A stretch of 64,000 bases of DNA from Corallococcus sp. EGB (GTDB taxonomy: Bacteria > Myxococcota > Myxococcia > Myxococcales > Myxococcaceae): contig NZ_CP079946.1 of the NCBI RefSeq assembly GCF_019968905.1, positions 4,898,001 through 4,962,000 of the forward strand, given 5' to 3'. Positions 21,946-52,223 of this stretch are shown here, piece after piece. The stretch's first letter is position 1. Every line of letters begins with the position of its first letter. Below the pieces are notes generated by a model, which ran no database searches, was not told where the DNA came from, and saw only the letters and a program-made list of their open reading frames with translations. Made by a program: the position numbers and the translations under genes.

Positions 21946-24060
21946 ATGCGAATCCGCGTGCGCCCCCTCTTCCTCGCCCTGACCCTGCTCGTCGGGTGCA
22001 ACGGCAACCGGGATCAGCTCCTCGCGGAGATCCAGGACCCCCGCCCCGAAATCCGCGCCACGGCCGTGAGGAAGCTGGCCGCGCAGAACAATCCGGACGA
22101 CCTGGTCCTCTTCACCCGTGCCGCCAAGGACCTCTCCGCCATCGTCCGCGGCGAGGCCGCCAGCGCGCTCGGAGAGAGCCAGGACCCGCGCGTCGTGGAT
22201 CTGCTCGGCGAGCTGCTGGAGGACTCCGACGAGACCGTCCAGGGGCAGGCCGCCCTGGCGCTCGCCAAGGTGAAGAACGACAAGGCCAAGGCATACCTCA
22301 CGCTCCAGTACGGACGGCGGGGCCGCGCCACGCGCCAGGTCATCGTCCAGGCGCTCAAGAGCGCCAACGTCCCCGGCGCCATGGCCTCCGTCGTCGCGGC
22401 CGAGTCCAAGGGCCTCTGGGACCGCAACCTCCTGGCCCTCACCGAGGGCGCGCTCCCGGAGCGCGTGGGCGCCGCGGAGGAGCTGGGCAAGAGCGGCCGG
22501 GCGGAGGCCGTCAACCGGCTGCTGCCCATGGTGCGCGACAGCCAGGTCCTCCTCGCCGCCGCCGCCGTGCGCGGGCTGGGCGATGCAGGCGACACCCGCG
22601 CGGTGGCCCCCATCGCGCTGCTCCTGGACGAGAGCTTCCCGGAGCTGCGCGAGTCCGCCATCGGCGCGCTGATGAAGCTGAATGACCCGATGGCCGCGGC
22701 GAAGCTCCAGGCGGTGGCGGTGGAGAAGAGCTCGGTGAGCCCGCTGGCCACCGACGCCATCCTGACCTTCCCGCGCACGCCCGCGACAGACGCCGCGCTG
22801 TGCGCCATCGCGCTCGACGGCGCCCGGGACGAGGCCCTGGACGCCGGCCGCGCCATGCGTTCGCGAGGCGGCTGCCCGGCGGAGCCCATCGCGGACCGGC
22901 TGGCGCGTCCGGCCACCGCGGCCTCGGGGCTCCAGGCGGTGACGGGCCTGGGCCCGGCCGCGCAGTCCCTGCTGCCCAAGGTGACCCCGTGGCTCAACCA
23001 GCCGGACGTGGGCCTGCGCACGCTCGCGGTCGAGGCGGTGACGCACGTGGGCGACGCCTCCGTGGTGCCCGTCATCCAGAAGCTCTACGATCAGGAGGTC
23101 GCCGGACTCGCGGCGCTGCGCGCGGACTGGATCCCGCAGGCGCTGCCGCAGAAGTACAGCGCGGCCCTGGATCCGTCCGCGCCGCGGCCGGAAGTGAAGG
23201 GCAAGGACGACAACCGGTCCGCCAAGCACGCGCAGCTCTTCGAGCGGCTCCAGGCGCTCAACGCGGCCCGCGCCAAGGAGGCCGGGCGCGTGGTGGTGCC
23301 GCCGCGAGTCCCCTCGGAGCTGAGCGATGACGTGGAGCCCGCGAAGCTGCAGCCGCTGGCCACGCTGCTGACGGCGCTGGGCGCGCTCAAGGCGCCCGGG
23401 GCCCTGGAGATCCTCAAGGGCTACGCGGACGACGCGAGCCCGGCGCTGCGCGCGGCGGCGCTGGTGGGCCTCACGTCGCTCGGGCCCGAGGGCATCGAGG
23501 TGACGCGCACGGCGATGCTGGAGCCCGACCGCGAGCTGCAGAAGGCGCTGGCGCTGGCGCTGGCGGAGCAGGGCGAGGCGGGCCAGCTCGCGCTGGTGGC
23601 GTCACTGCCGAAGATGGGCGGCGAGAAGCTGGTGGTCCTGGATGCGCTGACGCGCGTGGGGGCGCCGCCGGCGTCCGCGTCTGAGGCGTTGCAGGTCGTG
23701 GTGAAGGAGGGTGGGGCGGAGGCGGCGCTCGCGGCGCAGCTGCTGGGGCGGATGGGCGCGAAGGACGCGGTGCCCACGCTGCTCAAGGCGCTGGATGACT
23801 CCAACAGCGTGGCCCGGCGCGACGTCCTGCTGGCGCTGGGAGCCATTGGCGACGCGAAGTCGGCGGAGGTGGTGGGGCGGGACCTGTACCACGACCTGCC
23901 GGAGATCCGGGCCGCGGCGGCCACGGCGCTGCGCAAGATGAACACGGGCGCGGTGGCCGAGGCGCTGGACGCGCTGAAGAGCGACTACTTCCGCGAGGTC
24001 CGCGTCGCGGCGGGCGCCACCGTGACGAAGGAAGGCACGGCGGCCGGCGGGGCGCAGTGA
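21946..24060 (+). CDS. HEAT-repeat lipoprotein
   Basis: 704-residue predicted lipoprotein: signal peptide MRIRVRPLFLALTLLVGC with the cysteine at 18 as lipidation site. The mature part is almost wholly HEAT/PBS-type helical repeats of about 30 residues (for example ATAVRKLAAQNNPDDLVLF, GQAALALAKVKNDKA, RRDVLLALGAIGDAKSAEVV), forming a curved protein-binding scaffold. It would face the periplasm, anchored to a membrane. GGGAGA precedes the ATG. Its stop codon directly abuts the start of the TPR/cyclic-nucleotide-binding protein, so the two are probably co-translated and may act together. No enzymatic motif is visible. Confidence 0.85.
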   Translation: MRIRVRPLFLALTLLVGCNGNRDQLLAEIQDPRPEIRATAVRKLAAQNNPDDLVLFTRAAKDLSAIVRGEAASALGESQDPRVVDLLGELLEDSDETVQGQAALALAKVKNDKAKAYLTLQYGRRGRATRQVIVQALKSANVPGAMASVVAAESKGLWDRNLLALTEGALPERVGAAEELGKSGRAEAVNRLLPMVRDSQVLLAAAAVRGLGDAGDTRAVAPIALLLDESFPELRESAIGALMKLNDPMAAAKLQAVAVEKSSVSPLATDAILTFPRTPATDAALCAIALDGARDEALDAGRAMRSRGGCPAEPIADRLARPATAASGLQAVTGLGPAAQSLLPKVTPWLNQPDVGLRTLAVEAVTHVGDASVVPVIQKLYDQEVAGLAALRADWIPQALPQKYSAALDPSAPRPEVKGKDDNRSAKHAQLFERLQALNAARAKEAGRVVVPPRVPSELSDDVEPAKLQPLATLLTALGALKAPGALEILKGYADDASPALRAAALVGLTSLGPEGIEVTRTAMLEPDRELQKALALALAEQGEAGQLALVASLPKMGGEKLVVLDALTRVGAPPASASEALQVVVKEGGAEAALAAQLLGRMGAKDAVPTLLKALDDSNSVARRDVLLALGAIGDAKSAEVVGRDLYHDLPEIRAAAATALRKMNTGAVAEALDALKSDYFREVRVAAGATVTKEGTAAGGAQ

Positions 24061-26061
24061 ATGGAGGCGCGCGCGCTCAAGGAGAAGGCGACCGAGGCCT
24101 TCAGCAAGGGCCGCTTCGCCAAAGCCGCCGAGCTGTACGAGGACTACTGCCAGGCGGATCCGAAGGATCACCAGAGCCGGCTGCGCATGGGGGACGCGTG
24201 GGCCAAGGCCGGTCAGCGTGACCGGGCCGTCTCCGCGTACCAGTCCGCGGCGGAGGGCTTCGCGAAGGAGGGCTTCCTGCCGCGCGCCATCGCCGCGAGC
24301 AAGCTGATCCTCGAGCTGGATCCGTCCCATCAGGGCGTGCAGCAGATGCTCGCGGACCTGTACGCGAGAAGGGGCACGCCGGCCACGCCCAGGGTGAAGC
24401 CGAAGGACGCGGCGCCCCCGGCGACTCCCGCGAGCCTCGTCACGCAGCGCGAAGCGCCACCCGCCGCGCCCCCCAAGCCCCTGGAGGCGGGTGGGGCACC
24501 GGTGGACCTGTCGGCTTCGCTCCCGCCCGAGCTGGACCTGTCGAACGCGCCCGCGGCTGACGCGAATGCCAGTCCCGGATCCGCGCCGGACGACGGCGAG
24601 GTCGTCCTCTCCGTCGAAGTGGAGCTGGAGCCCACGCAACCCACGCCCGTGGCCGTCACGGCGTCCGGCGCCGCCACGGTCAGGCCGCCCACGGTGCCCG
24701 TGACGTCCGAATCCCCTGTTGCGCCCGAGGCGCCCGGATCCGCCGCGCCCCCCGTCACCCCGTCCTCCGCCGCGTCCGCGCCGCCGGGCCTGACCTCGCG
24801 CGCAGCCCCGCTGTCCCCATCCCCCATGCCTTCGCTTCCCCAGACCCGGACGCCCAGCGGACGCTGGCGGGCCCTCGCGCCGCCCATCACGGGCCCCGAC
24901 ACCCCAACGGTCGCGACGGAGCCGAAGGCCCCCACCCAGGCCGCGCCTCCAGGCCTGCGCCCGCGCCGCACCGAAGCGCCTTCCCAGCCCGCGGCCACGC
25001 CCGCCGCTGGCGCCTCCGTGGTGCCCACCACCGTGGGAGCCCCGGAGCCCTGGCGCGCGTCCCTGCGCGTCTCCAGCTTCACGGAGCTGGAGCTCGAAGC
25101 GGACTCGCTGCTGCACGCGGTGGAGCTCGCGGCCCAGCGCGGCCTGGCCGAACACGCGCCGGAAGAAGAGCCCGTCCACGAGCTGACCGGGGAGGCCGGG
25201 CCCGCCGCCAGCACGCTGGACGCGCTGCCCTCCATCCCGCTCTTCAGCGACCTGCCGCGCGACGCGTTCATCCAGCTCTTCGAACGCTGCCCGTTGCGCC
25301 GCTTCGGCCCCGGCGAGCGCATCCTCGCGCAGGGCACCCGGGGCGACGCCTTCTACGTCATCTGCGAAGGCCGGGTGCGCGTCTTCCGGGAAGAGAACGG
25401 CCACCGCCAGGACCTGGCCACGCTCGAGGACGGAGCCTTCTTCGGCGAGATGGCGCTGCTGTCCGGCGCCCCGCGCGCCGCCTCCGTGGAGTCCGCGGCC
25501 GACGACACGCAGGTGCTCGAGATCTCCGCCACCGTGCTCGCCGCGCTCTCGCGCAGCCACCCGTCCGTGGCCAGGGCTCTCAAGAAGTTCTGCCGCGAGC
25601 GCCTCCTCGCGAACGTGATGAACAGCTCCGAGCTGTTCCGCCCCTTCAACCGCAAGGACCGCCGCAACCTCGTGGAGCGCTTCCGGGCCCGCGACGTCGA
25701 GCGCGGCGCCCTCATCATCCGCGAAGGCGACGCCACCGACGGCCTCTACGTCGTCCTCTCCGGCGAGGTGGAGGTCCACAAGGGCGGCCAGCGGCTGTCG
25801 ACCCTGAAGGAAGGGGAGCTCTTCGGGGAGATCTCCCTCCTGCGGAAGACCCCGGCGACCGCCACCGTGGAGGCCACGCGCCACACCACGTTGCTGCGCC
25901 TGCCGCGCGAGGACTTCGACTCGCTCATCTCCAGCCACCCGCAGGTCTTGATGCTCGTCGCGGACCTGAGCGATGAACGCCTCCGCCGCACGCAGGACGC
26001 GCTGGACGACCGGCCGGGGGCCGCCATGAACGACGAAGAGGAAGACCTCATCCTCGTCTGA
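24061..26061 (+). CDS. TPR protein with two cyclic-nucleotide-binding domains
   Basis: 666-residue cytoplasmic protein starting at the base after the HEAT gene's stop. Residues 1-105 are TPR-like helices (AFSKGRFAKAAELYEDY, GQRDRAVSAYQSAAEGF). About 106-330 is a Pro/Ala-rich linker. Two cNMP-binding domains follow at about 390-505 and 515-640. The first has a canonical phosphate-binding cassette, FFGEMALLSGAPRAAS. The second, LFGEISLLRKTPATAT, keeps the Glu but lacks the Arg that contacts the cyclic phosphate, so it may not bind nucleotide. No DNA-binding or kinase domain is attached, so the output is likely through protein contacts, perhaps with the HEAT lipoprotein or the T6SS encoded 170 bp downstream; both are inference. 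Confidence 0.85.
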   Translation: MEARALKEKATEAFSKGRFAKAAELYEDYCQADPKDHQSRLRMGDAWAKAGQRDRAVSAYQSAAEGFAKEGFLPRAIAASKLILELDPSHQGVQQMLADLYARRGTPATPRVKPKDAAPPATPASLVTQREAPPAAPPKPLEAGGAPVDLSASLPPELDLSNAPAADANASPGSAPDDGEVVLSVEVELEPTQPTPVAVTASGAATVRPPTVPVTSESPVAPEAPGSAAPPVTPSSAASAPPGLTSRAAPLSPSPMPSLPQTRTPSGRWRALAPPITGPDTPTVATEPKAPTQAAPPGLRPRRTEAPSQPAATPAAGASVVPTTVGAPEPWRASLRVSSFTELELEADSLLHAVELAAQRGLAEHAPEEEPVHELTGEAGPAASTLDALPSIPLFSDLPRDAFIQLFERCPLRRFGPGERILAQGTRGDAFYVICEGRVRVFREENGHRQDLATLEDGAFFGEMALLSGAPRAASVESAADDTQVLEISATVLAALSRSHPSVARALKKFCRERLLANVMNSSELFRPFNRKDRRNLVERFRARDVERGALIIREGDATDGLYVVLSGEVEVHKGGQRLSTLKEGELFGEISLLRKTPATATVEATRHTTLLRLPREDFDSLISSHPQVLMLVADLSDERLRRTQDALDDRPGAAMNDEEEDLILV

Positions 26062-27159: not shown

Positions 27160-28875
27160 ATGCCTTTCGACGTGAAGGACATCCTCCGGCAGGTGGAAGC
27201 CGGGTTCGCTCCGGAGTCCGGAGCCCCGAGGTGGTGGCAGGAGAGCTGGGAGGATCCGGACGGGTTCGCCGTGGCGCTCGCGGAGGCCCACGCGGGCCGG
27301 GGCGTCCCGCCCCCCAAGAGCCGCCCTGGCCAGCAGTATGACTTCTTCCATGACCTGATGGTCCGCCACGTCTCGCTGGAGCGCCCCGCGTTCCGCACGC
27401 ACCAGCGCATCCAGGGCGCGCAGGCCCTGAGCTACCGCGCCCTGCACGACCTGGCCTCGCGCCGCGCCAGCGAGTGGGCGGATCAAGGCGTCGAACCGGG
27501 CGCCAGGGTGTGCCTGGTCCACGGAGTGGGGCAGGAGCTGCTCGTGTCGCTCCTGGCCACGCTGAAGCTGGGAGGCTGCTTCACGCTCCTGCCGCCCCTG
27601 GGCCCTCGCGCGATGGCCACACGGCTGGAGGCCCTGGCGCCGGACTTCATCGCCGCGGAGCCCCATCAACTCCCGCTCCTCAAGGGCCACGAGCAGCTCC
27701 TGCTCAAGGGCCAGGGCAGGGGAGCACCGGGCTTCACGTCGCACACGTACAAGCCCTCGGACGTCGTGGGGCTGCTCTTCTCGCCGCTGGTGGATCCGCC
27801 GCACACGCCGGTGCCCCTCACCGCGGAGAACGCGTGGAGGGGCGCCCTGAGCGACGGGCTGATCACCTTCGGCCTGTCGCCGGGGGACATCCTCGCGGCG
27901 CCGGACTTCCCGGTGCTCCAGCACCTGCCGGCGCTCCTCTTCGCCACGTTCCTGCGCGGCGCCACCTACCTGCACCTGGAGATGGCGGACCTGGCGCTCA
28001 ACCCGGCCCCGCTATTGGAGCACCCGCTGCGCGCCCTGGGTGTCACGCCGAAGCTGCGCGACCTGCTCCTCCGCCACCGCGCCTCCTTGCGCAACGTGCA
28101 GCACTGGTTCCGCAACCCGGAGGAGCCCTACGACGCCCAGGCGTGGCGCACGTGGGTGAAGCAGTGCGGCCTCCAGGCCGTGCAGTCCTCCAACATCCTC
28201 ATCGACGCGGCGGCCGGCGGCGCGGTGCTCATCTCGTCGCGCGGCGTGACGGAGCCGCACACGGACGTGCACACGGACGTCTTCCCCGTCCCGGGCCGCG
28301 CGTGGACGCTGAAGGATCCGAACCAGAGCGGGCAGGGCGCGCCCGCGGACGTGGGCGTCTTCACGCTGCTGCCGGACAAGGACTACGCGCCGGGCCACGT
28401 CCTGCTCGCGCGGATCCGCCAGCGCTACCACTACGGGGGCACGCTGGGCTTCCGGCGCGACGGCCACACCTACTCCGCGAAGGAGGTCACCGCCGCGCTG
28501 GAGGGCCTGCCGTTCCTCGCGGGAACCAGCGTGGTGCCGGTGTCCACCGGCGGCCTCGCCAGTCACTCCCGCTTCACCCTCCTGGCCTTCACGGGCGCCA
28601 CGCCTGCTCCCCCGTCCGGCGAGCAGGAGATCACCCGGCGCATCGAAATGCTCCTGGGCGGGGATTTCCTGCCCGATCGCATCGAGTTCTTTCCGCTCGT
28701 CCCACACAGGGTGAAGGGCGCGGTCGACGACGCGTGGTGCGCCTCGCAGTTCTTCACCGGCGCGCTGCACCGCAAGTCGAAGGACCCGATGTTCCAGGCC
28801 CTCACGGCCCTGCGGGGTCGGCTGTTGGAAAGCGCCGCGGCTTCGGGCGAAGATGGCCCGTCGCCAGCGCGCTGA
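27160..28875 (+). CDS. Degenerate AMP-binding (ANL superfamily) protein in the T6SS locus
   Basis: 571-residue protein with the fold signature of acyl-CoA synthetase/NRPS adenylation enzymes: FHDLMVRHVSLERPAF, ALSYRALHDLASRRASEWADQGVEPGARVCLV (core 1 equivalents), LLATLKLGGCFTLLPPLGP, and near the end HYGGTLGFRRDGHTYSAKEVTAAL, like the hinge/C-terminal domain. The ATP phosphate-binding loop normally reading TSGSTGxPK is replaced by LLFSPLVDPPHTPVPLTAEN (about 206-225), and the YGxTE motif is unrecognisable. It therefore probably does not adenylate and may be a structural or binding paralogue. It lies 6 bp after the first T6SS gene and 14 bp before the PAAR-like gene. An adaptor that loads cargo is one inference. 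Confidence 0.75.
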   Translation: MPFDVKDILRQVEAGFAPESGAPRWWQESWEDPDGFAVALAEAHAGRGVPPPKSRPGQQYDFFHDLMVRHVSLERPAFRTHQRIQGAQALSYRALHDLASRRASEWADQGVEPGARVCLVHGVGQELLVSLLATLKLGGCFTLLPPLGPRAMATRLEALAPDFIAAEPHQLPLLKGHEQLLLKGQGRGAPGFTSHTYKPSDVVGLLFSPLVDPPHTPVPLTAENAWRGALSDGLITFGLSPGDILAAPDFPVLQHLPALLFATFLRGATYLHLEMADLALNPAPLLEHPLRALGVTPKLRDLLLRHRASLRNVQHWFRNPEEPYDAQAWRTWVKQCGLQAVQSSNILIDAAAGGAVLISSRGVTEPHTDVHTDVFPVPGRAWTLKDPNQSGQGAPADVGVFTLLPDKDYAPGHVLLARIRQRYHYGGTLGFRRDGHTYSAKEVTAALEGLPFLAGTSVVPVSTGGLASHSRFTLLAFTGATPAPPSGEQEITRRIEMLLGGDFLPDRIEFFPLVPHRVKGAVDDAWCASQFFTGALHRKSKDPMFQALTALRGRLLESAAASGEDGPSPAR

Positions 28876-28889
28876 AAAAGGAGCGGCAC

Positions 28890-29276
28890 ATGGGTGCTCA
28901 GGTCGTGATGGGAGCGATGCTCCAATGCAGCTTCGGGGTGGCCCCATCGTCGCTGATGGTCCTGCCCGCGAACCGGGTGATGGCCACCACGCCCGCGGCC
29001 AACATCATGGACAACAAGCCGTTCATGAACATCCTGCCGTTCGGCATGTGCCAGTCCCTGGCCAACCCCATGGTCGCGGCGGCCACGGCGGCGGCCTTCG
29101 GCGTCCTCACCCCCATGCCCTGCATCCCCGCCACCGCGGCCCCCTGGATGCCCGGGTGCCCCAAGGTGCTGATCGGCAACATGCCGGCCCTGGAGAGCAA
29201 CTCCAAGTGCATGTGCAACTGGGGCGGCGTCATCCAGGTCGTCATGCCCGGACAGATGGTGGCCATCGATGGCTAG
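28890..29276 (+). CDS. DUF4280 PAAR-like spike-tip protein
   Basis: 128-residue protein of the DUF4280/PAAR-like class, which caps the VgrG spike of T6SS and may anchor effectors. It begins MGAQVVMGAMLQCSFGVAPS, has the family's repeated short strands (NKPFMNILPFGMCQSLANP, MPCIPATAAPW) and cysteines (LQCSFG, FGMCQS, MPCIPA, SKCMCNWGG) that may bind metal at the tip. The start has a strong GGAG (AAAAAGGAGCGGCAC) upstream. It overlaps the next gene by 8 nt. No effector domain is fused, so if it delivers a toxin it does so non-covalently. Confidence 0.85.
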   Translation: MGAQVVMGAMLQCSFGVAPSSLMVLPANRVMATTPAANIMDNKPFMNILPFGMCQSLANPMVAAATAAAFGVLTPMPCIPATAAPWMPGCPKVLIGNMPALESNSKCMCNWGGVIQVVMPGQMVAIDG

Positions 29277-30354
29277 CCCCGCGCTGGTGTTGGAGCCCGT
29301 CGACTTCGCGCTGCTCGACACGGAGTTCACCACCGCCCCCGTCTTCCTCGACGAGTCCGAGGGCCCGGATCCGCGCCTGGAGGCCATCACCGGCCTCGTC
29401 GCCCGGAGCGAGTACGCGGACGCCGCCCGCGCAGCCGCCGCGCTCCTGCGTGAGGGCGTGCGCGACGTGCGCATCGTGGGGCCCTACCTCTTCGGTCACT
29501 TCGCCGCGGACGGGATGAAGGCGCTGCCCTCCGTCTTCCGCTCGCTCAAGCGCACCCTGACGGAGAACTGGGACTTCTTCGGCCCGGTGGAGAAGAAGCT
29601 CGTCTTCGCGGACACCGGCCTGCGCTGGCTGCTGAAGATGATGGGCAAGCACCTGGAACACCATTCGCGCCTCAAGGACGCGCAATGGCAGACATGGAGC
29701 GCGCCCGGCAACCGCGAGCCCATGGAAGAGGCGCTGGCCATGGGCGACCCGCTCATCGCCGCCCTCGCCATCCTGCAGAAGAGCGCGTGCATGGACGCCA
29801 TGCGCACGCTGCTCGGCGCGCTGCGCGCCCACGCCCAGGCCGTACCCTTCCTGCCCCCGCCGGAGGAGCCCAAGCCCGCGGACGCCGCGCCGGAGCTCGC
29901 CGCCGCCCCGGACGACGACGAGGAGGACGACGAAGCAGGGGAGGAGGAAGAGGAGGTCCGCCCCGCGCGCGCGAAGGCGAAGAAGGCCGCCCACGCGGAA
30001 GCGCACGACGAAGGCCCGCGCGTGCCCATGTCGCCCGCGCTCGCGCAGCTGGTCCGCAAGCTGTCCGCCTTCGAGGCGCTGGTGGAGCGCGAGGACTACA
30101 CCAAGGCGAGCGTCATCGCCGTGGACGTGCTCGCCACCGTGGAGCGCTTCGACCCGCGCGTGTACCTGCCGCAGCTCTTCTCCGGCTTCTTCAATGGCCT
30201 GGCACAGCACGCGGAAGCCATCGAGCCCATGCTGCACAACACGGAGACGCTGTCCTTCCGCGCCATGGATCAGCTCTACCGCGTGGACCTGGACGCGTTC
30301 CTCGTGGCCCAGCAGCGCCAGCCGTCACGCGGCGGCTCGGAATACGACGAATAG
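29269..30354 (+). CDS. IglI/TssA-like T6SS protein
   Basis: 361-residue protein. The N-terminal ~150 residues are helical and resemble the ImpA-N/IglI-type T6SS proteins (RLEAITGLVARSEYADAARAAAALL, VRDVRIVGPYLFGHFAADG). A low-complexity, Glu/Asp/Lys-rich linker covers about 200-245. The C-terminal ~100 residues repeat the helical pattern (ALVEREDYTKASVIAVDVLATVERFDP). TssA-type proteins prime sheath assembly at the baseplate and IglI is its counterpart in Francisella-like systems; the locus has no canonical TssA, so this gene is the best candidate. Start overlaps the PAAR-like stop by 8 nt. The family call is by resemblance and operon position only. Confidence 0.6.
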   Translation: MASPALVLEPVDFALLDTEFTTAPVFLDESEGPDPRLEAITGLVARSEYADAARAAAALLREGVRDVRIVGPYLFGHFAADGMKALPSVFRSLKRTLTENWDFFGPVEKKLVFADTGLRWLLKMMGKHLEHHSRLKDAQWQTWSAPGNREPMEEALAMGDPLIAALAILQKSACMDAMRTLLGALRAHAQAVPFLPPPEEPKPADAAPELAAAPDDDEEDDEAGEEEEEVRPARAKAKKAAHAEAHDEGPRVPMSPALAQLVRKLSAFEALVEREDYTKASVIAVDVLATVERFDPRVYLPQLFSGFFNGLAQHAEAIEPMLHNTETLSFRAMDQLYRVDLDAFLVAQQRQPSRGGSEYDE

Positions 30355-45235: not shown

Positions 45236-47359
45236 TCAGGACGCGAGCGCGTCCAGCTTGGGGCCCAGCGCGTTGAGCGCGGACGTCACCCGGCCGTTCG
45301 CCGCCGTCACCGGCTTCGCGAAAGCGCCCGCCTGGAGCTGGGCGCCAATCGCATCCAGCGGGGAGAGGAGCTGAGGCTTCTGCCCCGTGGCCTGCGTGGA
45401 CACCGAGTCCACCTGGGCCTGGGCGCCGGACTTGAGGCCCTCCGCGCGCTGCTGGAAGGCCGCGAGCGCCGACTCCGCCTGGGAGCCGAGGGACGTCTCC
45501 GCGCTGGCGCGGGCCGTCTCCAGCGACGTCAGCCCGGTCGTCACTGACGCTTTCGTGGTGCCCAGGTGCGTGTCCAGCCGGCCCTTCGCGGACGTCACCT
45601 GGCCCTGCGCCGAGTCCCGCGCCGTCTGCAGGCCCTGCACCGCCGCGTCGATGCCGGCGCCCACCTGGGCGTCCAGGGCCTCCAGGCGCTGCGGCACCTG
45701 CGTGTCCAGCGGCGTCACGCGCGCGGCCACCTGCTGCTTCATGGCCTCGATCTGCTGCACACCCTGGTCCTTCACGGTGCCGATCTGCGTGACGGCCGCG
45801 GCGATGATCTGCCCCACCTGGGCGTTGGCCTGCTCGATGCCCTGGAGGATGGACTCGGTGAGGGTGCCCATCTGGGTCACGGCCTGGGTCGTGGCCGTGT
45901 CGATCTGCGTCTGCGCCTGGGTCTGCACCGTCTCCACCTGCGAGACGATGGTCTTCTGCACCGCCTGGAGCTGGGGGCCGACCTGTGAGGAGAGGGTCCC
46001 CAGCTGCGTGGTGATCTGCCCCACCACCTGGCTGATGCCCTGCACCGCGGGGCTCACCAGCGGCTTGGGCAGGTCCGCGGCCGGGATGGCGTCCAGCAGG
46101 CCCATGGCCCGCTCCAGCAGCGACTCCAGCGAACCGACGATCTGCTGGAAGAGGGTCTGGAGCTGCTCCAGCAGCTGCGGCAGCGACTCGAACAGCGCCA
46201 TCACCTGCTGCTTGAGGGCGCTGACGGTCGCGACCAGCGAGTCCAGCGTGGTGAAGGCCGCGTCCAGCGTGGCCTTCAGCGGCGCCTTGACGGTCTCCAC
46301 CGCCGTGAGCGCGCCGTGCACCAGGCCGTCGATGGTGCCGCTCACCGTGGTGATGGCGGTCTCCACCTGCTTCTGCACCTGGTCGATGAGCTTCTCCACC
46401 GCCGTCAGCGACGCGGTGACGCTGGCCACCTGGCCGGCAATCGTCTTGCCCAGCGTGTCCAGTGCCCCATCCGCCTGCGTCTTGCCCGCCGAGAGCGACG
46501 GGGCCACCTGGGTGTCCAGCGGATCCACGATGCCGGCCGACGCAGCGGCCGCGGCCATCAGCTGATCCACCAGCGACTTGCGCTGGCCCTCCAGCGCGGA
46601 CTGCTGCTGCTGGTGGGCGTCCTTCGTCGTCCTGCCCGCGTTGACAATCTCCTGGTGCAGCGTCGCCAGCGCGCTCACCGGGTTCTTCACCGCGCCGTCC
46701 AACGTGGCGGTCAGCTGCGTGCTCCGGCCCGTCGCCGCGTCGCGGGAGGTGGTCAGCCGCACCAGCACCGCGGACAGCGCCGCCGTGAGGGTGGACCCCA
46801 CGCCTGTGAGGTCCTGCGTGAGCTGCGAGCGTGTCTGGTCGATGAGCGCGTAGCCCTGCGCGCGGCGGGCCTCCGTCTCCTCCTTGGAACCCTTGCGCCT
46901 GGCGAGCTTCGCGTCGAAGGACTTCTTGTCCGCGTCGCACTTCTGGGCGACCTGCTGCTGGAGCGCGGCGAGCTGTCCCTGTGACGCCTCCGCGGAGGAC
47001 TTCGCCTGCGCCTCCAGCCCCTGGCTCTTCGCCGTGGCCTCCTGGCCCAGCGACTCCGCCTTCGTGCGCGCCGTCTCGCTGGAGGCGGTCAGCGACTGCT
47101 GGTGCCCCTTCACCTGCGCGGCCAGTGCATCAAAGCGGGGGGAGGGGTCCGCCACCTTCACGTTCGCCGCGTTCACCTGCGTGAGCAGCGCACCCAGCGT
47201 CGCGCTGATGGAGGGGCGCAGCGCGGCGACCTGCTCCACGATCCCCTGGGCCAGGGCCTCCACCTCGCCCTTCGCGGTGGCAAGGCGGGGCGTGATGCCG
47301 GAGCCGAAGCCCTCCACGGACGCCTTGTGCTTCGCCACGGTGGCGCGCAGGTCGTTCAT
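45236..47359 (-). CDS. 707-residue coiled-coil protein, candidate T6SS cargo or spike extension
   Basis: Soluble protein, almost entirely Ala/Gln/Thr/Leu-rich long helices with heptad-like spacing (for example QLLEQLQTLFQQIVGSLESLLE and TQAQTQIDTATTQAVTQMG). No signal peptide, no membrane segment and one cysteine. The central part (about 330-450) is more hydrophobic and has one proline-rich break. The start overlaps the end of VgrG-like gene 2 by 4 nt, so the two are co-translated. No enzymatic motif is visible. It resembles phasin, tape-measure or tropomyosin-like helical proteins in composition only. A VgrG-linked protein of this size is a natural candidate effector or spike-associated filament; it is convergent with tssJ. 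Confidence 0.75.
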   Translation of the reverse strand: MNDLRATVAKHKASVEGFGSGITPRLATAKGEVEALAQGIVEQVAALRPSISATLGALLTQVNAANVKVADPSPRFDALAAQVKGHQQSLTASSETARTKAESLGQEATAKSQGLEAQAKSSAEASQGQLAALQQQVAQKCDADKKSFDAKLARRKGSKEETEARRAQGYALIDQTRSQLTQDLTGVGSTLTAALSAVLVRLTTSRDAATGRSTQLTATLDGAVKNPVSALATLHQEIVNAGRTTKDAHQQQQSALEGQRKSLVDQLMAAAAASAGIVDPLDTQVAPSLSAGKTQADGALDTLGKTIAGQVASVTASLTAVEKLIDQVQKQVETAITTVSGTIDGLVHGALTAVETVKAPLKATLDAAFTTLDSLVATVSALKQQVMALFESLPQLLEQLQTLFQQIVGSLESLLERAMGLLDAIPAADLPKPLVSPAVQGISQVVGQITTQLGTLSSQVGPQLQAVQKTIVSQVETVQTQAQTQIDTATTQAVTQMGTLTESILQGIEQANAQVGQIIAAAVTQIGTVKDQGVQQIEAMKQQVAARVTPLDTQVPQRLEALDAQVGAGIDAAVQGLQTARDSAQGQVTSAKGRLDTHLGTTKASVTTGLTSLETARASAETSLGSQAESALAAFQQRAEGLKSGAQAQVDSVSTQATGQKPQLLSPLDAIGAQLQAGAFAKPVTAANGRVTSALNALGPKLDALAS

Positions 47360-49281
47360 TTCAGCCCCGCGAGCGCGGCCTTGGCTTCAGCGGCGGCGCC
47401 AGAGAGCGCGCCCGTCTGCCCATCCAGGCCGTTGAGCGCGCCGGTGAGTCTGGCGCGGGACTCCGCGGCCTTGCCCTTGACCTGGGCCTCCGCGGCGGCG
47501 AGGGCCGCGCCCGTCTCCTCCGTCGCCGCGTTCAGCTTCGCGTTCACCGCCGCCGACGCTTCCTTGTACGCCGCCGTCGCGTCGCTCACCGCGCCGTCCA
47601 CACCCGCGGTGAGGTCGCCCTTGGCCGTCTCCACCTGCGGCGTCACGTCGTATGTGGGCGTGGTGGTGGCGCCGCCGGGGTTCTCCTTCGTCTGGATGAG
47701 GAGGTGGCCCTCCGAAAGGCGGATGGTCTCCGTGTCGTTGGCGTTCACCCGCCCCAGGTTCCACACCGGCTTGTTGTCCTGGAAGTCGTGCGTGAGCGCC
47801 GTCTGGTTCTTGCCGTTCTTGCCAAAGAGGATCTGATCGCCCTGGCCGTCCTGGGGCGTGCGCACGCCCTCGCCCCAGTCCAGGTAGCGGTTCAGCTCCG
47901 CGTGGTCGAAGTGCAGCGCCACCAGCGCCCGCTCGTTCTTGTACGGCGGGAAGTAGAACGTCCCCGGGAAATGACCGGGCTCCGCCGGCACGCTCACCGT
48001 CTTGTTCCAGAGCGGAATCGTCACGCGGTAGTTCGTCACCGACGTCTTCTCGTCATCCACCTGGAGGTAGATGCGGTCCGTGGCCTCGCCGCCGGGGCTG
48101 TGCACCTTGCCCTCGACGTAGATGGGGTAGCGGGGAGGGCGGTACGCGGGCAGCTCCGGCACCGGATCCGACTTCTGCTCCAGCAGCAGGGTCAGGGTCA
48201 GGGTGAAGCCCTGCATCGTCTCCTGCTGGCCGTCGTGCGGGCCCGCCTGGAGCCCCACGCCATCAAAGGCCAGCTCCGCCACGCGGTGGTCTTCCCCCAG
48301 ACCCGTGAGGTCCGGGCTCCACCGCCCGCCGTCCAGCTTGATCAACGCCCCCGGGTGCATCGCGATGGGCGGCACATCGAGGAACGTCAACCGAAGGCGC
48401 CGCTTGCGCACGCGCAGGCGCTCCTTCTCCAGCGCCTGGCGCTGCTCGGACACCGTCGCGAGGGGCGTGCGCACCAGCACGTCGTGCTGGATGCCCGCCA
48501 CCGCCTGGGACTGCTCCAGCGCCACGGTGGTCGCTCCGGCCCCGAAGCCGTTGAGCACCCGCGCGCTGTGCCGGATGACCGGCGGCATCTCCACGTCCAC
48601 GCGCGCCACGTGCTTGCAGCTGAGCCCGGTGACGGTGCCCGTGGCGGGCTTCTTCGCGGAGAAGGTGTACGTGTCCTTGGGGCTGTCGTAGGTGAGCACG
48701 CCGCCGCGCGTGTCCACGTACCAGAGGACGAAGTCGTAGAAGCTCGCGGCCGGGTGGTCGTCGCCGATGCCCAGGCACACCAGGGCGTGCTTGGTGTCCA
48801 GCGCGTCCCAGTCGTAGGTGAGCAACAGGCCGCCGGGCTTGTGCGCGTCCAGGAGCTCCGACAGCTTCTTCGCCGTGTGCAGCTCCACCGGGCGGTGCTG
48901 CTTCCAGAGCACCCGCGCGGCGTCCTCGAACGTGACGGTGTACTGGCGGAAGGCCACCGCCACCGAGTCCTTGTTGCCGTGCGCGGTGCCGCTGACGCGC
49001 CTCTCCGTGACGAGGCCCTGGACGACGAGCGGCGCGGGCGGCGGGTCGAAGACACCGGACAACGCCAGCCGCACCCGCACCAGGTCCGGCTTGCAGAACG
49101 CGGTGAACAGCGCCGCGTCGGCCTTCTCCAGCGCGGTCCAGAACGTGAGCTCGCAGCGGAAGCCGGTGGGCGTCATCCGCAGCGAGAAGTCCTTCACCTG
49201 TCCGCCGGGGATGGCGAAGGCCTGCTCCCCCGCGATCACGGTCAGCTCCAGCTTCAGCTTGTCGGAGAAGGGGAGCGCCAT
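47356..49281 (-). CDS. VgrG-like spike head protein 2, with helical C-terminal tail
   Basis: 641-residue paralogue of the VgrG-like protein at 35932. The two share aligned blocks: SFYDFVLWYVDTRGGVLTYD against SFYDFVVWFVHTRNGVLAYD, and PGTFYFPPYKNERALVALHF followed by LDWGEGVRTPQDGQGDQILF. It lacks a beta-helix needle. Instead about 90 residues after the conserved end (SEGHLLIQTKEN) form an Ala/Lys/Glu-rich predicted helix. That tail is the same kind of sequence as the coiled-coil protein encoded next, suggesting they interact. The start lies 7 bp after the MshEN gene; ATG is at 49281. It is likely a dedicated carrier for the coiled-coil protein. Confidence 0.8.
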   Translation of the reverse strand: MALPFSDKLKLELTVIAGEQAFAIPGGQVKDFSLRMTPTGFRCELTFWTALEKADAALFTAFCKPDLVRVRLALSGVFDPPPAPLVVQGLVTERRVSGTAHGNKDSVAVAFRQYTVTFEDAARVLWKQHRPVELHTAKKLSELLDAHKPGGLLLTYDWDALDTKHALVCLGIGDDHPAASFYDFVLWYVDTRGGVLTYDSPKDTYTFSAKKPATGTVTGLSCKHVARVDVEMPPVIRHSARVLNGFGAGATTVALEQSQAVAGIQHDVLVRTPLATVSEQRQALEKERLRVRKRRLRLTFLDVPPIAMHPGALIKLDGGRWSPDLTGLGEDHRVAELAFDGVGLQAGPHDGQQETMQGFTLTLTLLLEQKSDPVPELPAYRPPRYPIYVEGKVHSPGGEATDRIYLQVDDEKTSVTNYRVTIPLWNKTVSVPAEPGHFPGTFYFPPYKNERALVALHFDHAELNRYLDWGEGVRTPQDGQGDQILFGKNGKNQTALTHDFQDNKPVWNLGRVNANDTETIRLSEGHLLIQTKENPGGATTTPTYDVTPQVETAKGDLTAGVDGAVSDATAAYKEASAAVNAKLNAATEETGAALAAAEAQVKGKAAESRARLTGALNGLDGQTGALSGAAAEAKAALAGLK

Positions 49282-49288
49282 GGCGTGT

Positions 49289-50047
49289 TCACCGGGCCTT
49301 CGCCTGGACCTCCTCGCGCGTCAGCGCGCCCCGGGCCTCCAGCGCGTCCATCATCGCGCGCATCACGCGGGCCTGCTGCGCCACCATGCGCTCCAGGTCC
49401 GCCACCTGCTGCGTGAGCGCCTCCACCTTCTTCGCCAGCTCCAGGTCTCGCACCACCGGCGGCGGCGTGGGCGTCCGAGGAGCCGCCGCGGCTTCCGGCT
49501 GCTGCGGCGGGGCCAGCTCGAAGGTGGACTCCTCCATGCCGAAGCTCAGCGGCGTGGCGGCCGTGGAGGTGATCTCACCGTGGTAGTGGTGCCGGATGGC
49601 GCGCTCGATGGAGGACGCGGTCGCCACCACCACCTGGAGCTTCTGGCCGGAGTGGAAGGCCAGCTCCTGGAGGGACTCCACGTTGGTGGGGTCCGACGTG
49701 GCCACGGTGAGCATCTTGGTGCCGGCCTCGTAGGCGATGGGGAAGACGGTGTAGCGCTCGGCGATGTCCACGCGCAGCGCCTGGAGGGCGGACGGGACGG
49801 GGAGGTGCGCGTCCAGGTCCACGGTGGGGATGGCCAGCTGCCGCGACAGGGCATGCACCATGGAGCTTTCGTCCACGACGCCCATCTGCACCAGGGTGAG
49901 GCCCAGCCGGCCGCCCCACTTGCGCTGTTCAGCCAGCGCGGTGCGCAGCTGGGTTTCGGTGAGCAGGCCGGCGTCCATCAGGATCTCTCCCAACCGCCGC
50001 TTGCGGTTGGGGCCCGGGCCGGGAGGAACAGAAGGGGGAGGATTCAC
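49289..50047 (-). CDS. MshEN-domain protein (predicted c-di-GMP binding)
   Basis: 252-residue soluble protein. Residues 18-70 hold two consecutive MshEN motifs, each 24 residues of the form RLGxxLxxxGxLxxxxLxxALxxQ (18-41 and 47-70) separated by 5 residues (RKWGG). In MshE and related proteins this tandem motif binds cyclic di-GMP. The rest of the GspE-N-like domain runs to about 155 (LAIPTVDLDAHLPVPSALQALR). No ATPase domain follows; the C-terminus has a Pro/Ala linker and a helix (LELAKKVEALTQQVADLERM) like a coiled coil. GTG start at 50047. It is the first gene of the unit with VgrG 2 and the coiled-coil protein, making c-di-GMP control of that unit plausible. Confidence 0.85.
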   Translation of the reverse strand: MNPPPSVPPGPGPNRKRRLGEILMDAGLLTETQLRTALAEQRKWGGRLGLTLVQMGVVDESSMVHALSRQLAIPTVDLDAHLPVPSALQALRVDIAERYTVFPIAYEAGTKMLTVATSDPTNVESLQELAFHSGQKLQVVVATASSIERAIRHHYHGEITSTAATPLSFGMEESTFELAPPQQPEAAAAPRTPTPPPVVRDLELAKKVEALTQQVADLERMVAQQARVMRAMMDALEARGALTREEVQAKAR

Positions 50048-50138
50048 GGCCGGGCAGCATATCAGCGCCGGACACTCCCCAGGCCCCCGGTGGGTCACGA
50101 ACAGGCCAGGCGGGCGGGGATGGGATACCCTGAGCCCC

Positions 50139-50972
50139 ATGGTGCGAAGCCGAAGCCTCCTTTTCGCGGCAGTCCTCGTGGCCTTCACCGCCGGTTGCGC
50201 CTCCCAGCGCCTGTCCGGCGCGGACCTGGACCGGGTCCAGCGGCCCGCCTTCATCTCCCGCATCGAGGACGGCGCGGGGCCCAAGAGCAAGGTGTTCCAG
50301 GAGGACGACGCCTACGCGGACAAGCTCAAGAAGCTGGAGCCCAAGGAGGCGGATCGCCGGCTCACCGTGAAGCTCCAGCAGGCGGTGACCCGCTTCGAGC
50401 TCTCTGAACGCCTGCGCGTCACCACGCTGTCGCGCCTGCCGGAGGAGGCCCCCTGGACGGACACGGTGGACCCCGCCCGGGTGGCCTCCGCGCTGGAGAG
50501 CTTCCTCGTGGAGGAGGTGCCCGCCAACGCGCCGGACTACGACCTGATGGCCCCGCTGGGCGCGGACACCATCGTGGAGTTCGTCATCCAGGACTACGGC
50601 ATGCGCAGCGAGGACGGGCGCGCCGGGGCCTACCTCAAGGGGTACGGGCGCATGTTCAAGCTCGCCGGGCGCTCGGAGCTGTGGCGCCGGCCGTTCGACA
50701 TGGACGGCGTGAAGCAGGGCGCGCCCCACCTGGATCCGTTCAAGGTCGGCAAGGAGCCGGAGCTCTTCCGCCTGGCCATGACGGATCTGCTCGACAAGGT
50801 GGCGGACATGTTCGTGAAGGACCTGACGCCCAAGAACCGCAAGGGCGCGGTCCCCTCGGGCAGCACCGCGCCGGACACGGTGCCCTCCGCCGTCACTCCC
50901 GCGGCCGCGGTCGCCCCCGCGCCGCCCGAGCATCCGCTGCCCCCGGGCGAGCTGCCGGATCCGGATCCCTGA
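50139..50972 (+). CDS. Putative lipoprotein of unknown function
   Basis: 277-residue predicted lipoprotein: MVRSRSLLFAAVLVAFTAGC with a good lipobox (TAGC) and the lipidated cysteine at residue 20. The mature part (about 30-230) has mixed helix and strand (ALESFLVEEVPANAPDYDLM, DTIVEFVIQDYGMRSEDG), and the last 40 residues are Pro/Ala-rich. I do not recognise the family. It is divergent from the MshEN gene, with 91 bp between their start codons, and convergent with the transporter. A function for the T6SS is not shown by the sequence. Confidence 0.75.
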   Translation: MVRSRSLLFAAVLVAFTAGCASQRLSGADLDRVQRPAFISRIEDGAGPKSKVFQEDDAYADKLKKLEPKEADRRLTVKLQQAVTRFELSERLRVTTLSRLPEEAPWTDTVDPARVASALESFLVEEVPANAPDYDLMAPLGADTIVEFVIQDYGMRSEDGRAGAYLKGYGRMFKLAGRSELWRRPFDMDGVKQGAPHLDPFKVGKEPELFRLAMTDLLDKVADMFVKDLTPKNRKGAVPSGSTAPDTVPSAVTPAAAVAPAPPEHPLPPGELPDPDP

Positions 50973-50975
50973 TCC

Positions 50976-52223
50976 CTAGAGGAGGGCGTGCTCGGCCAGG
51001 AGAACCCCCAGGCCCACGGCGAAGCTGATCAGCGTCACGGGCACGCCCACGCGCAGGTAGTCCATGAAGCCCATGCGGACCTTGCCGCGCGCGGCCTCGA
51101 AGACGATGAGGTTGGCCACGCTGCCCACCAGCGTGAGGTTGCCCGCGAGCGTGGAGCCCAGCGCGAGCACGTGCCACGCCAGCTCCGGCTCCTGCATCGT
51201 CGGCACCCACGCTCGCGCGAGCATCACGAAGGGGACGTTGCTGAAGATGTTGGACGCCACCAGCGTCAGGGCCGCGAAGCCCAGCGTCTCGCGCCACGGC
51301 GGCCCGGCCATCAGCGGGGAGAACACCTGGCGGATCTCCTCCGCCCAGCCCGCCTTGTTCACCCCGTACACGACGACGAAGAGGCTGGCGAAGAAGAGCA
51401 GCAGCACCCAGTCCACGCGCTCCAGCGCCTCGCGCGAGTCGTGCCCGGACAGCGTCATCACCAGCACGCCGCCCGCGAGCGCGCTCCAGCTCATGGGCAG
51501 GCCCGCGAAGAACGCCACCACCACGCCCAGCAGGCCGCCCAGTCCCAGCGTCAGGAGCCGGCGGTTCACCTCCAACGGAGGCGGGTGCGTCTCGAAGCGC
51601 GCGGCCGGCAGCTCCTTGCGAAACAGGTAGAGCAGCGCCACGGCGACGATGAGCGTGGAGAGCAGGGCGGGCAGGGCCATGTACGCGGCGAACCGCGCGT
51701 AGCTCAGGCCGGACGCACCTTGGATGAGCATGTTCTGCGGGTTGCCGGTGAAGGTGGCCACGGAGCCGCTGTTGCTGCCCATGCACACCGCGAGCAGGTA
51801 CGGCGCGGGCGGCAGGCGGGCGTCCTCGACCACCGCCAGCACCAGCGGCGTGAGGAACAAACACACGGTGTCATTGACGAGGAACGCGGACAGGAACGCG
51901 CTCACGAGCGTCACGGCCACCAGGAGCAGCCGGGGCGTGTGTGCGACCTTGAGCGCCTTGGCCCCCGCGGCGCGGAAGAAGTTCGCCTGCGCCAGGTACA
52001 CGGCCAGCAGCATCATCCCCAGCAGGAGGACGAGCGTGTCCATGTCGATGGCCTGGTGGCTGCGCTCGGTGCTGTGGCCGAAGACCTCCGCGGGGGTGAC
52101 GACCCCGGCGACGACCATCAGCGTGGCTCCGAGGAGCGAGCCTCCGGGACGATCCAGCTTGATGAAGGGCAGCCTCGCCCCGGCGATGAAGATGTACGTG
52201 AAAAGGAAGATCGCGAGCGCCAC
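50976..52223 (-). CDS. SLC13/ArsB/CitMHS-type ion transporter
   Basis: 415-residue polytopic inner-membrane protein with 10-12 hydrophobic segments. It carries motifs of the ion-transporter superfamily that includes ArsB, NhaD and SLC13: AFLVNDTVCLFLTPLVL, with NDT as in ArsB-type NDA, and MGSNSGSVATFTGNPQNMLI, and near the C-terminus a second SNIFSNVPFVMLARAW and GNLTLVGSVANLIVFE. The two repeats are related, as usual for this fold. Substrate (arsenite, dicarboxylate, sulfate or sodium) cannot be told. GTG start at 52223. It is divergent from mrfA. Confidence 0.85.
   Translation of the reverse strand: MALAIFLFTYIFIAGARLPFIKLDRPGGSLLGATLMVVAGVVTPAEVFGHSTERSHQAIDMDTLVLLLGMMLLAVYLAQANFFRAAGAKALKVAHTPRLLLVAVTLVSAFLSAFLVNDTVCLFLTPLVLAVVEDARLPPAPYLLAVCMGSNSGSVATFTGNPQNMLIQGASGLSYARFAAYMALPALLSTLIVAVALLYLFRKELPAARFETHPPPLEVNRRLLTLGLGGLLGVVVAFFAGLPMSWSALAGGVLVMTLSGHDSREALERVDWVLLLFFASLFVVVYGVNKAGWAEEIRQVFSPLMAGPPWRETLGFAALTLVASNIFSNVPFVMLARAWVPTMQEPELAWHVLALGSTLAGNLTLVGSVANLIVFEAARGKVRMGFMDYLRVGVPVTLISFAVGLGVLLAEHALL

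Follow-up and report, generated by a model that had tools for sequence, protein, structure and literature searches.

A predicted c-di-GMP receptor gene of the MshEN kind at the edge of a T6SS island in Corallococcus

In the genome of Corallococcus sp. EGB, the gene for a small protein with an MshEN domain ends a few nucleotides before a VgrG-like gene on the same strand, at one end of a T6SS cluster. The first-pass annotation of this DNA had read the arrangement as a second-messenger switch on spike or cargo loading. We therefore asked what the MshEN protein is, how it came to lie beside the spike gene, and whether its position says anything about control of the T6SS. The window, meaning the whole stretch of DNA that was analysed, is 64,000 nt long and has a G+C content of 70.4%.

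The MshEN protein

The gene and the parts of its product are as follows.

49289–50047, minus strand: MshEN gene, 252 amino acids, with a c-di-GMP receptor-type domain, a linker and a C-terminal helix; resident core gene (open reading frame, Pfam, NCBIfam, structural model, orthologues at the same core locus outside Corallococcus)
49925–49996, minus strand: predicted c-di-GMP half-site, motif 1, residues 18–41 (translation, NF053729, conservation)
49838–49909, minus strand: predicted c-di-GMP half-site, motif 2, residues 47–70, with Met at position 17 (translation, NF053729, conservation)
49574–49834, minus strand: MshEN C-terminal subdomain, residues 72–158 (Pfam PF05157)
49334–49456, minus strand: predicted long C-terminal helix, residues 198–238 (AlphaFold2 model), probably a coiled coil

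The start codon is GTG, a choice supported by the Myxococcus xanthus orthologue, whose own start codon aligns with it. Motif 1 (RLGEILMDAGLLTETQLRTALAEQ, residues 18–41) and motif 2 (RLGLTLVQMGVVDESSMVHALSRQ, residues 47–70) are separated by the five residues RKWGG, in the 24+5+24 layout described by Wang et al. in 2016 (PMC5013675). The exact spacing noted at first pass is therefore right, and the motif sequences are near-perfect rather than perfect: 20 of the 22 scored positions fit the published pattern. The mismatches fall at position 7 of motif 1, where the residue is Met, and at position 17 of motif 2, where Met stands in place of Leu. This second mismatch also accounts for the one departure among the key contact residues (R, L, G, L, L and Q, twice), 11 of 12 of which are present.

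The NCBIfam profile c-di-GMP_motif (NF053729) matches residues 18–70 over all 53 positions (E = 6.9 × 10−19; 67.4 bits, cut-off 38), and a match so far above the cut-off rules out a chance motif. Pfam PF05157 (MshEN) matches residues 72–158 (E = 2.5 × 10−19), and phmmer aligns the protein with MshE (5htl; E = 1.6 × 10−13). The AlphaFold2 model has a mean pLDDT of 78.0; in blocks of ten residues, the domain scores 83–95, and a low-confidence linker (residues 161–198, disordered) and then the helix (residues 198–238) come after it. The best PDB match to this model in Foldseek is MshE with c-di-GMP (5htl_B; E = 7.5 × 10−11; TM score on the target 0.74). Neither a Walker-A pattern nor a C-terminal ATPase domain occurs in the 252 residues, which excludes a secretion ATPase of type II/IV (GspE/PilB/MshE).

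Conservation of the motifs was counted over 48 rows (49 less L039, a fragment without the motif region), in which a few genomes are represented by two rows, such as L027 and L149. Gly-3 of both motifs is present in all 48 rows, as is Gln-24 of motif 1; Gln-24 of motif 2 is kept in 46. Because the profile match, this conservation and the fold agree, c-di-GMP binding is predicted, in line with the first-pass expectation, and the gene product is best described as a putative MshEN-type c-di-GMP receptor, small and cytosolic.

The protein had also been singled out as a stand-alone domain. It does lack an ATPase, and this is not unusual: of the 16 PF05157 loci in the same, complete genome (9,431,171 bases), 4 have a Walker-A pattern and the other 12 are non-ATPase, so that rarity can be rejected; 7 of the 16, this gene included, are short frames of less than 350 amino acids without Walker A. 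By its double-motif score it ranks second among the 16 (20/22, with the best at 21/22). In M. xanthus, up to 22 MshEN genes with many domain partners were reported by Wang et al. (PMC5013675), and 17 MshEN proteins were counted in a 2022 study.

A resident gene block and an inserted T6SS island

The surroundings of the gene fall into a resident part and an inserted part.

21946–24060, plus strand: HEAT-repeat protein with a lipoprotein-like N terminus, resident (Pfam, synteny)
24061–26061, plus strand: TPR protein with two cNMP-binding domains (TPR–cNMP), resident; convergent neighbour of MshEN in other genera (Pfam, synteny)
26062–49288, no strand: inserted island with the T6SS genes, about 23 kb, flanked by the stop codons of the TPR–cNMP and MshEN genes, which are convergent (empty sites, same cluster elsewhere)
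45236–47359, minus strand: CC707, coiled-coil protein; overlaps the end of VgrG2 by 4 bp and follows VgrG2 at the sites seen
47356–49281, minus strand: VgrG2, VgrG/PdpA-like spike hub, 641 amino acids, with a C-terminal helical tail absent from VgrG1 (profile, low-confidence model)
49282–49288, no strand: spacer of 7 nt between the MshEN stop codon and the VgrG2 ATG; right-hand end of the inserted island
50139–50972, plus strand: putative lipoprotein, resident; divergent from MshEN, with 91 bp between the starts (open reading frame, synteny)
50976–52223, minus strand: CitMHS/ArsB-type transporter, resident, same conserved block (Pfam, synteny)

We compared the block between genomes by tblastn of the window genes against stretches around MshEN orthologues. 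The 14 named loci outside Corallococcus come from Myxococcus, Pyxidicoccus, Citreicoccus, Hyalangium, a MAG and one record titled Comamonas (L159, counted with the Myxococcaceae). At 13 of them, MshEN is convergent with the TPR–cNMP orthologue and there is no T6SS match; the contig of the 14th ends inside MshEN. The lipoprotein and transporter genes also adjoin MshEN at these loci where the contig reaches. In the set of non-Corallococcus genomes, the MshEN/TPR–cNMP pair was found in 14 of 17 stretches, the other 3 ending at or shortly after MshEN, and tblastn found no T6SS match in any of the 17. The pair extends to another family of the order (G046). In Myxococcus xanthus AM003 the stop codons of the pair are only 2 bp apart; Corallococcus retains complete ends of both genes. 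At L162, L163 and in several genome stretches, MshEN is separated from the recognised part of the TPR–cNMP gene by about 1–4 kb that has no T6SS match. By this synteny, MshEN is a core Myxococcaceae gene of a block that runs HEAT protein, TPR–cNMP protein, MshEN, lipoprotein, transporter.

Two second-messenger-type receptors, MshEN and the TPR–cNMP protein (24061–26061), thus adjoin each other across the Myxococcaceae. The block, with its double cNMP-binding protein and lipoprotein, is a conserved putative signalling locus. The Comamonas record (sp. KCTC 72670; MshEN at L159 10001–10768) holds the whole Myxococcus-type block at 57–84% identity to the window proteins, and the assembly is probably mislabelled or contaminated.

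The T6SS genes have a different distribution. VgrG2 and the sheath family VipB each occur in 22 of 59 genomes, and these are the same 22: all 16 Corallococcus genomes and six from other genera (G018, G022, G026, G029, G030 and G032). In those six Myxococcaceae genomes the cluster lies at another site, with the same gene order as far as the stretches reach and ending in VgrG2–CC707; a search for MshEN near it (12 stretches, 197,450 bases) gave a best match of E = 0.25. Conversely, an orthologue of MshEN is kept in 12 of the 13 genomes of the family that lie outside Corallococcus and lack a VipB match, in each case with at least one block gene adjoining; the 13th (G021) has a weaker match only. 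The distribution of MshEN does not follow that of the T6SS. In the T6SS-bearing G018, G022 and G026, the best MshEN matches that we checked have no block genes around them, so the T6SS seems to exist there without an orthologue of this particular MshEN gene.

Because the block is free of T6SS genes in other genera and the same cluster stands elsewhere without MshEN, comparison of these loci shows that, in the Corallococcus lineage, the roughly 23-kb T6SS island entered exactly between two stop codons, that of the TPR–cNMP gene and that of MshEN. The resulting arrangement at the MshEN–VgrG2 junction is present in 16 of 16 Corallococcus genomes. A single insertion would explain the pattern; many independent losses are the alternative that, strictly speaking, could still account for it. 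The locus offers a clean empty-site and filled-site pair for the T6SS island.

What was inserted is itself divergent. None of VgrG1, VgrG2 and the Hcp-like protein of the T6SS region (26233–49281) has a Pfam or NCBIfam match at E ≤ 0.01. The VgrG family profile does match Francisella PdpA (E = 2.2 × 10−4), and the low-confidence model of VgrG2 (mean pLDDT 44.3) has fold matches to PdpA, VgrG and gp27-type spike hubs, which we take as supporting only. Of the first-pass description of a VgrG-like gene 7 bp downstream of MshEN, the spacing is correct and the naming of the 47356–49281 product is supported indirectly, by this profile and model. Since the gene at 29269–30354 belongs to the IglI family (E = 2.7 × 10−79), the system is, as judged from its protein families, a divergent one of the PdpA/IglI type. 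The helical tail of VgrG2 spans about 80–100 residues, and the long coiled coil of CC707 follows VgrG2 in Corallococcus and in the six genomes of other genera; together they may form a spike that has a cargo or tape-like partner of its own. The EGB genome paper (PMC8466578) states that most T6SS proteins were lost in EGB and in most Corallococcus; because the system is found in all 16 Corallococcus genomes, it may have been overlooked earlier.

Two further genes deserve mention. At the start of the island, 27160–28875 encodes a conserved protein of 571 amino acids with a weak AMP-binding-enzyme match near its N terminus (E = 1.6 × 10−7), and the gene holds the same position in genomes from five further genera. 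About 25 kb to the left of the T6SS lies 328–1137, presumably a thiD-like gene, and a look-alike stands directly beside the T6SS in Citreicoccus (L127 599–1408), which hints at a local move of the T6SS cluster.

We consider it very probable that MshEN is the c-di-GMP receptor of an old resident block, that the T6SS island was inserted later in Corallococcus, and that the adjacency carries no evolved T6SS role. As in MshE, the N-terminal 53-residue double motif would bind one molecule of c-di-GMP; the bound state would be read out through protein contacts of the C-terminal helix, probably as a coiled coil and probably in a dimer, with an output partner from the block itself or from elsewhere. 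Insertion would then have placed the vgrG2–CC707 pair 6–7 nt behind MshEN, making T6SS adjacency a by-product and leaving a small chance of regulatory capture.

Because the T6SS genes arrived later beside a resident gene, their adjacency does not show that MshEN controls the T6SS. By the evidence of the comparison, MshEN did not arise as part of the T6SS; synteny speaks against such membership, and linkage to T6SS genes is confined to Corallococcus. The proposed switch on the spike finds no support here: the MshEN block predates the T6SS at this site and is kept without it, and VgrG2 occurs elsewhere without MshEN. An effect of c-di-GMP on the spike is possible. The locus also illustrates how neighbouring genes at an island boundary can hint at a signalling connection for which comparative evidence gives no backing.

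The junction and the alternative readings

The distance from the MshEN stop codon to the VgrG2 ATG is 7 nt in 15 of the 16 Corallococcus genomes and 6 nt in the other, and it is kept although the stop codon and the letters of the spacer vary. Elsewhere, VgrG2 is preceded by a divergent gene about 180 bp away (Citreicoccus) or about 490 bp away (G029), which leaves room for a promoter of its own, or by unrelated genes on the same strand. We found no sigma-70-type promoter or terminator in 49100–50250 with a scan that has little power in Corallococcus. MshEN, vgrG2 and CC707 probably share a transcript: the gap of 6–7 nt is too short to hold a VgrG2 promoter, CC707 overlaps VgrG2 by 4 bp, and no promoter or terminator was found. 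What keeps a co-expression link between MshEN and VgrG2 open is the genus-wide close spacing alone.

These features bear on the possibility that, once the island was in place, the spike pair came under the control of MshEN, through either the protein or its promoter; c-di-GMP, or the conditions that induce MshEN, would then set VgrG2–CC707 output in Corallococcus. The lack of promoter room, which Citreicoccus and G029 do have, and the absence of a terminator-like site at the junction would both fit, and so would the pattern of synonymous change: at four-fold sites, the last 60 MshEN codons change at 0.63 times the level of the remaining codons in 10 Corallococcus genes, against 1.25 times in 10 relatives without the insertion. 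Values as low arose in 5 of 259 circular shifts for the last 60 codons, 15 of 259 for the last 40 and 46 of 259 (not significant) for the last 20. This test was post hoc, run after the profile had been seen, and the signal is modest, suggestive in the longer windows only and clearest at 60 codons. The low rate could reflect an internal VgrG2 promoter or a coupling element, the first of which would make VgrG2 independent and fits equally well. Together with the kept spacing, it could mean that the junction has become functional, a point that counts against our preferred explanation. A shared transcript, however, gives the receptor no role in loading. The MshEN motifs, moreover, are equally kept in species with and without a T6SS (48 scored rows); the protein itself therefore gives no sign of a new T6SS role and did not visibly change when the island arrived. 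We regard such control as unlikely. More specifically, the island may have lost the promoter of its second spike operon, leaving MshEN, vgrG2 and CC707 co-expressed in all Corallococcus and c-di-GMP-bound MshEN affecting VgrG2–CC707 production or loading; this fuller version we hold to be decidedly unlikely. Were the junction functional, it would illustrate how, in nature, a second-messenger receptor gene can bring a weapon operon under its own promoter, a regulatory capture by insertion.

A separate doubt concerns the ligand. None of the 48 scored rows has Leu at position 17 of motif 2, where Met, Ile or Val stands instead; position 1 of that motif is Lys in some of them, and Wang et al. (PMC5013675) name XpsE as a homologue that lost binding. 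The MshEN protein might likewise have given up c-di-GMP and now be purely structural or an adaptor. Yet Gly-3 and Gln-24 are kept as described above, and in MshE single Leu-to-Ala changes still allowed ligand stabilisation (PMC5013675), and we think loss of binding unlikely. That MshEN evolved together with VgrG2 as a dedicated T6SS regulator or spike adaptor, as the shared strand and 7-nt spacing might suggest, is highly improbable given its orthologues in T6SS-free genomes, VgrG2–CC707 without MshEN in six genomes of other genera, and the T6SS-bearing G018, G022 and G026, in which no orthologue in block context was found.

Comparison with known systems

The reading of MshEN as a resident receptor can be set against four known cases. 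Control of a T6SS by c-di-GMP is already known from Agrobacterium tumefaciens, where the second messenger is tied to T6SS output (PMC6771610); the effect there is on production of T6SS components and toxins, and the abstract describes no MshEN protein beside a spike gene. For the pairing of MshEN with VgrG or a T6SS, the titles and opening parts of abstracts among the papers listed yielded no published description. As in the M. xanthus T6SS and its vgrG2–tsxEI locus (PMC5801462), Corallococcus has a second VgrG gene with partner genes. The M. xanthus vgrG2 is described as an orphan with a toxin–immunity pair, whereas VgrG2 of Corallococcus is followed by a coiled-coil protein; c-di-GMP has no occurrence in the text of that paper.

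The protein itself resembles Vibrio cholerae MshE (5htl) and the GSPII domains of Thermus thermophilus PilF in the 24+5+24 layout, the MshEN_C subdomain and the fold. Unlike them, its domain is followed by no ATPase and instead by a linker and a C-terminal helix, and Met replaces Leu at position 17 of motif 2. Further counterparts are the non-ATPase MshEN proteins of myxobacteria (M. xanthus; FrgA is named by Wang et al., PMC5013675), which are likewise short and without Walker A, and several of which occur in the same genome. The product of 49289–50047 adds to this known class and is nothing new in kind; it differs from the other non-ATPase members in how well its double motif is preserved, which only one of the 16 loci surpasses.
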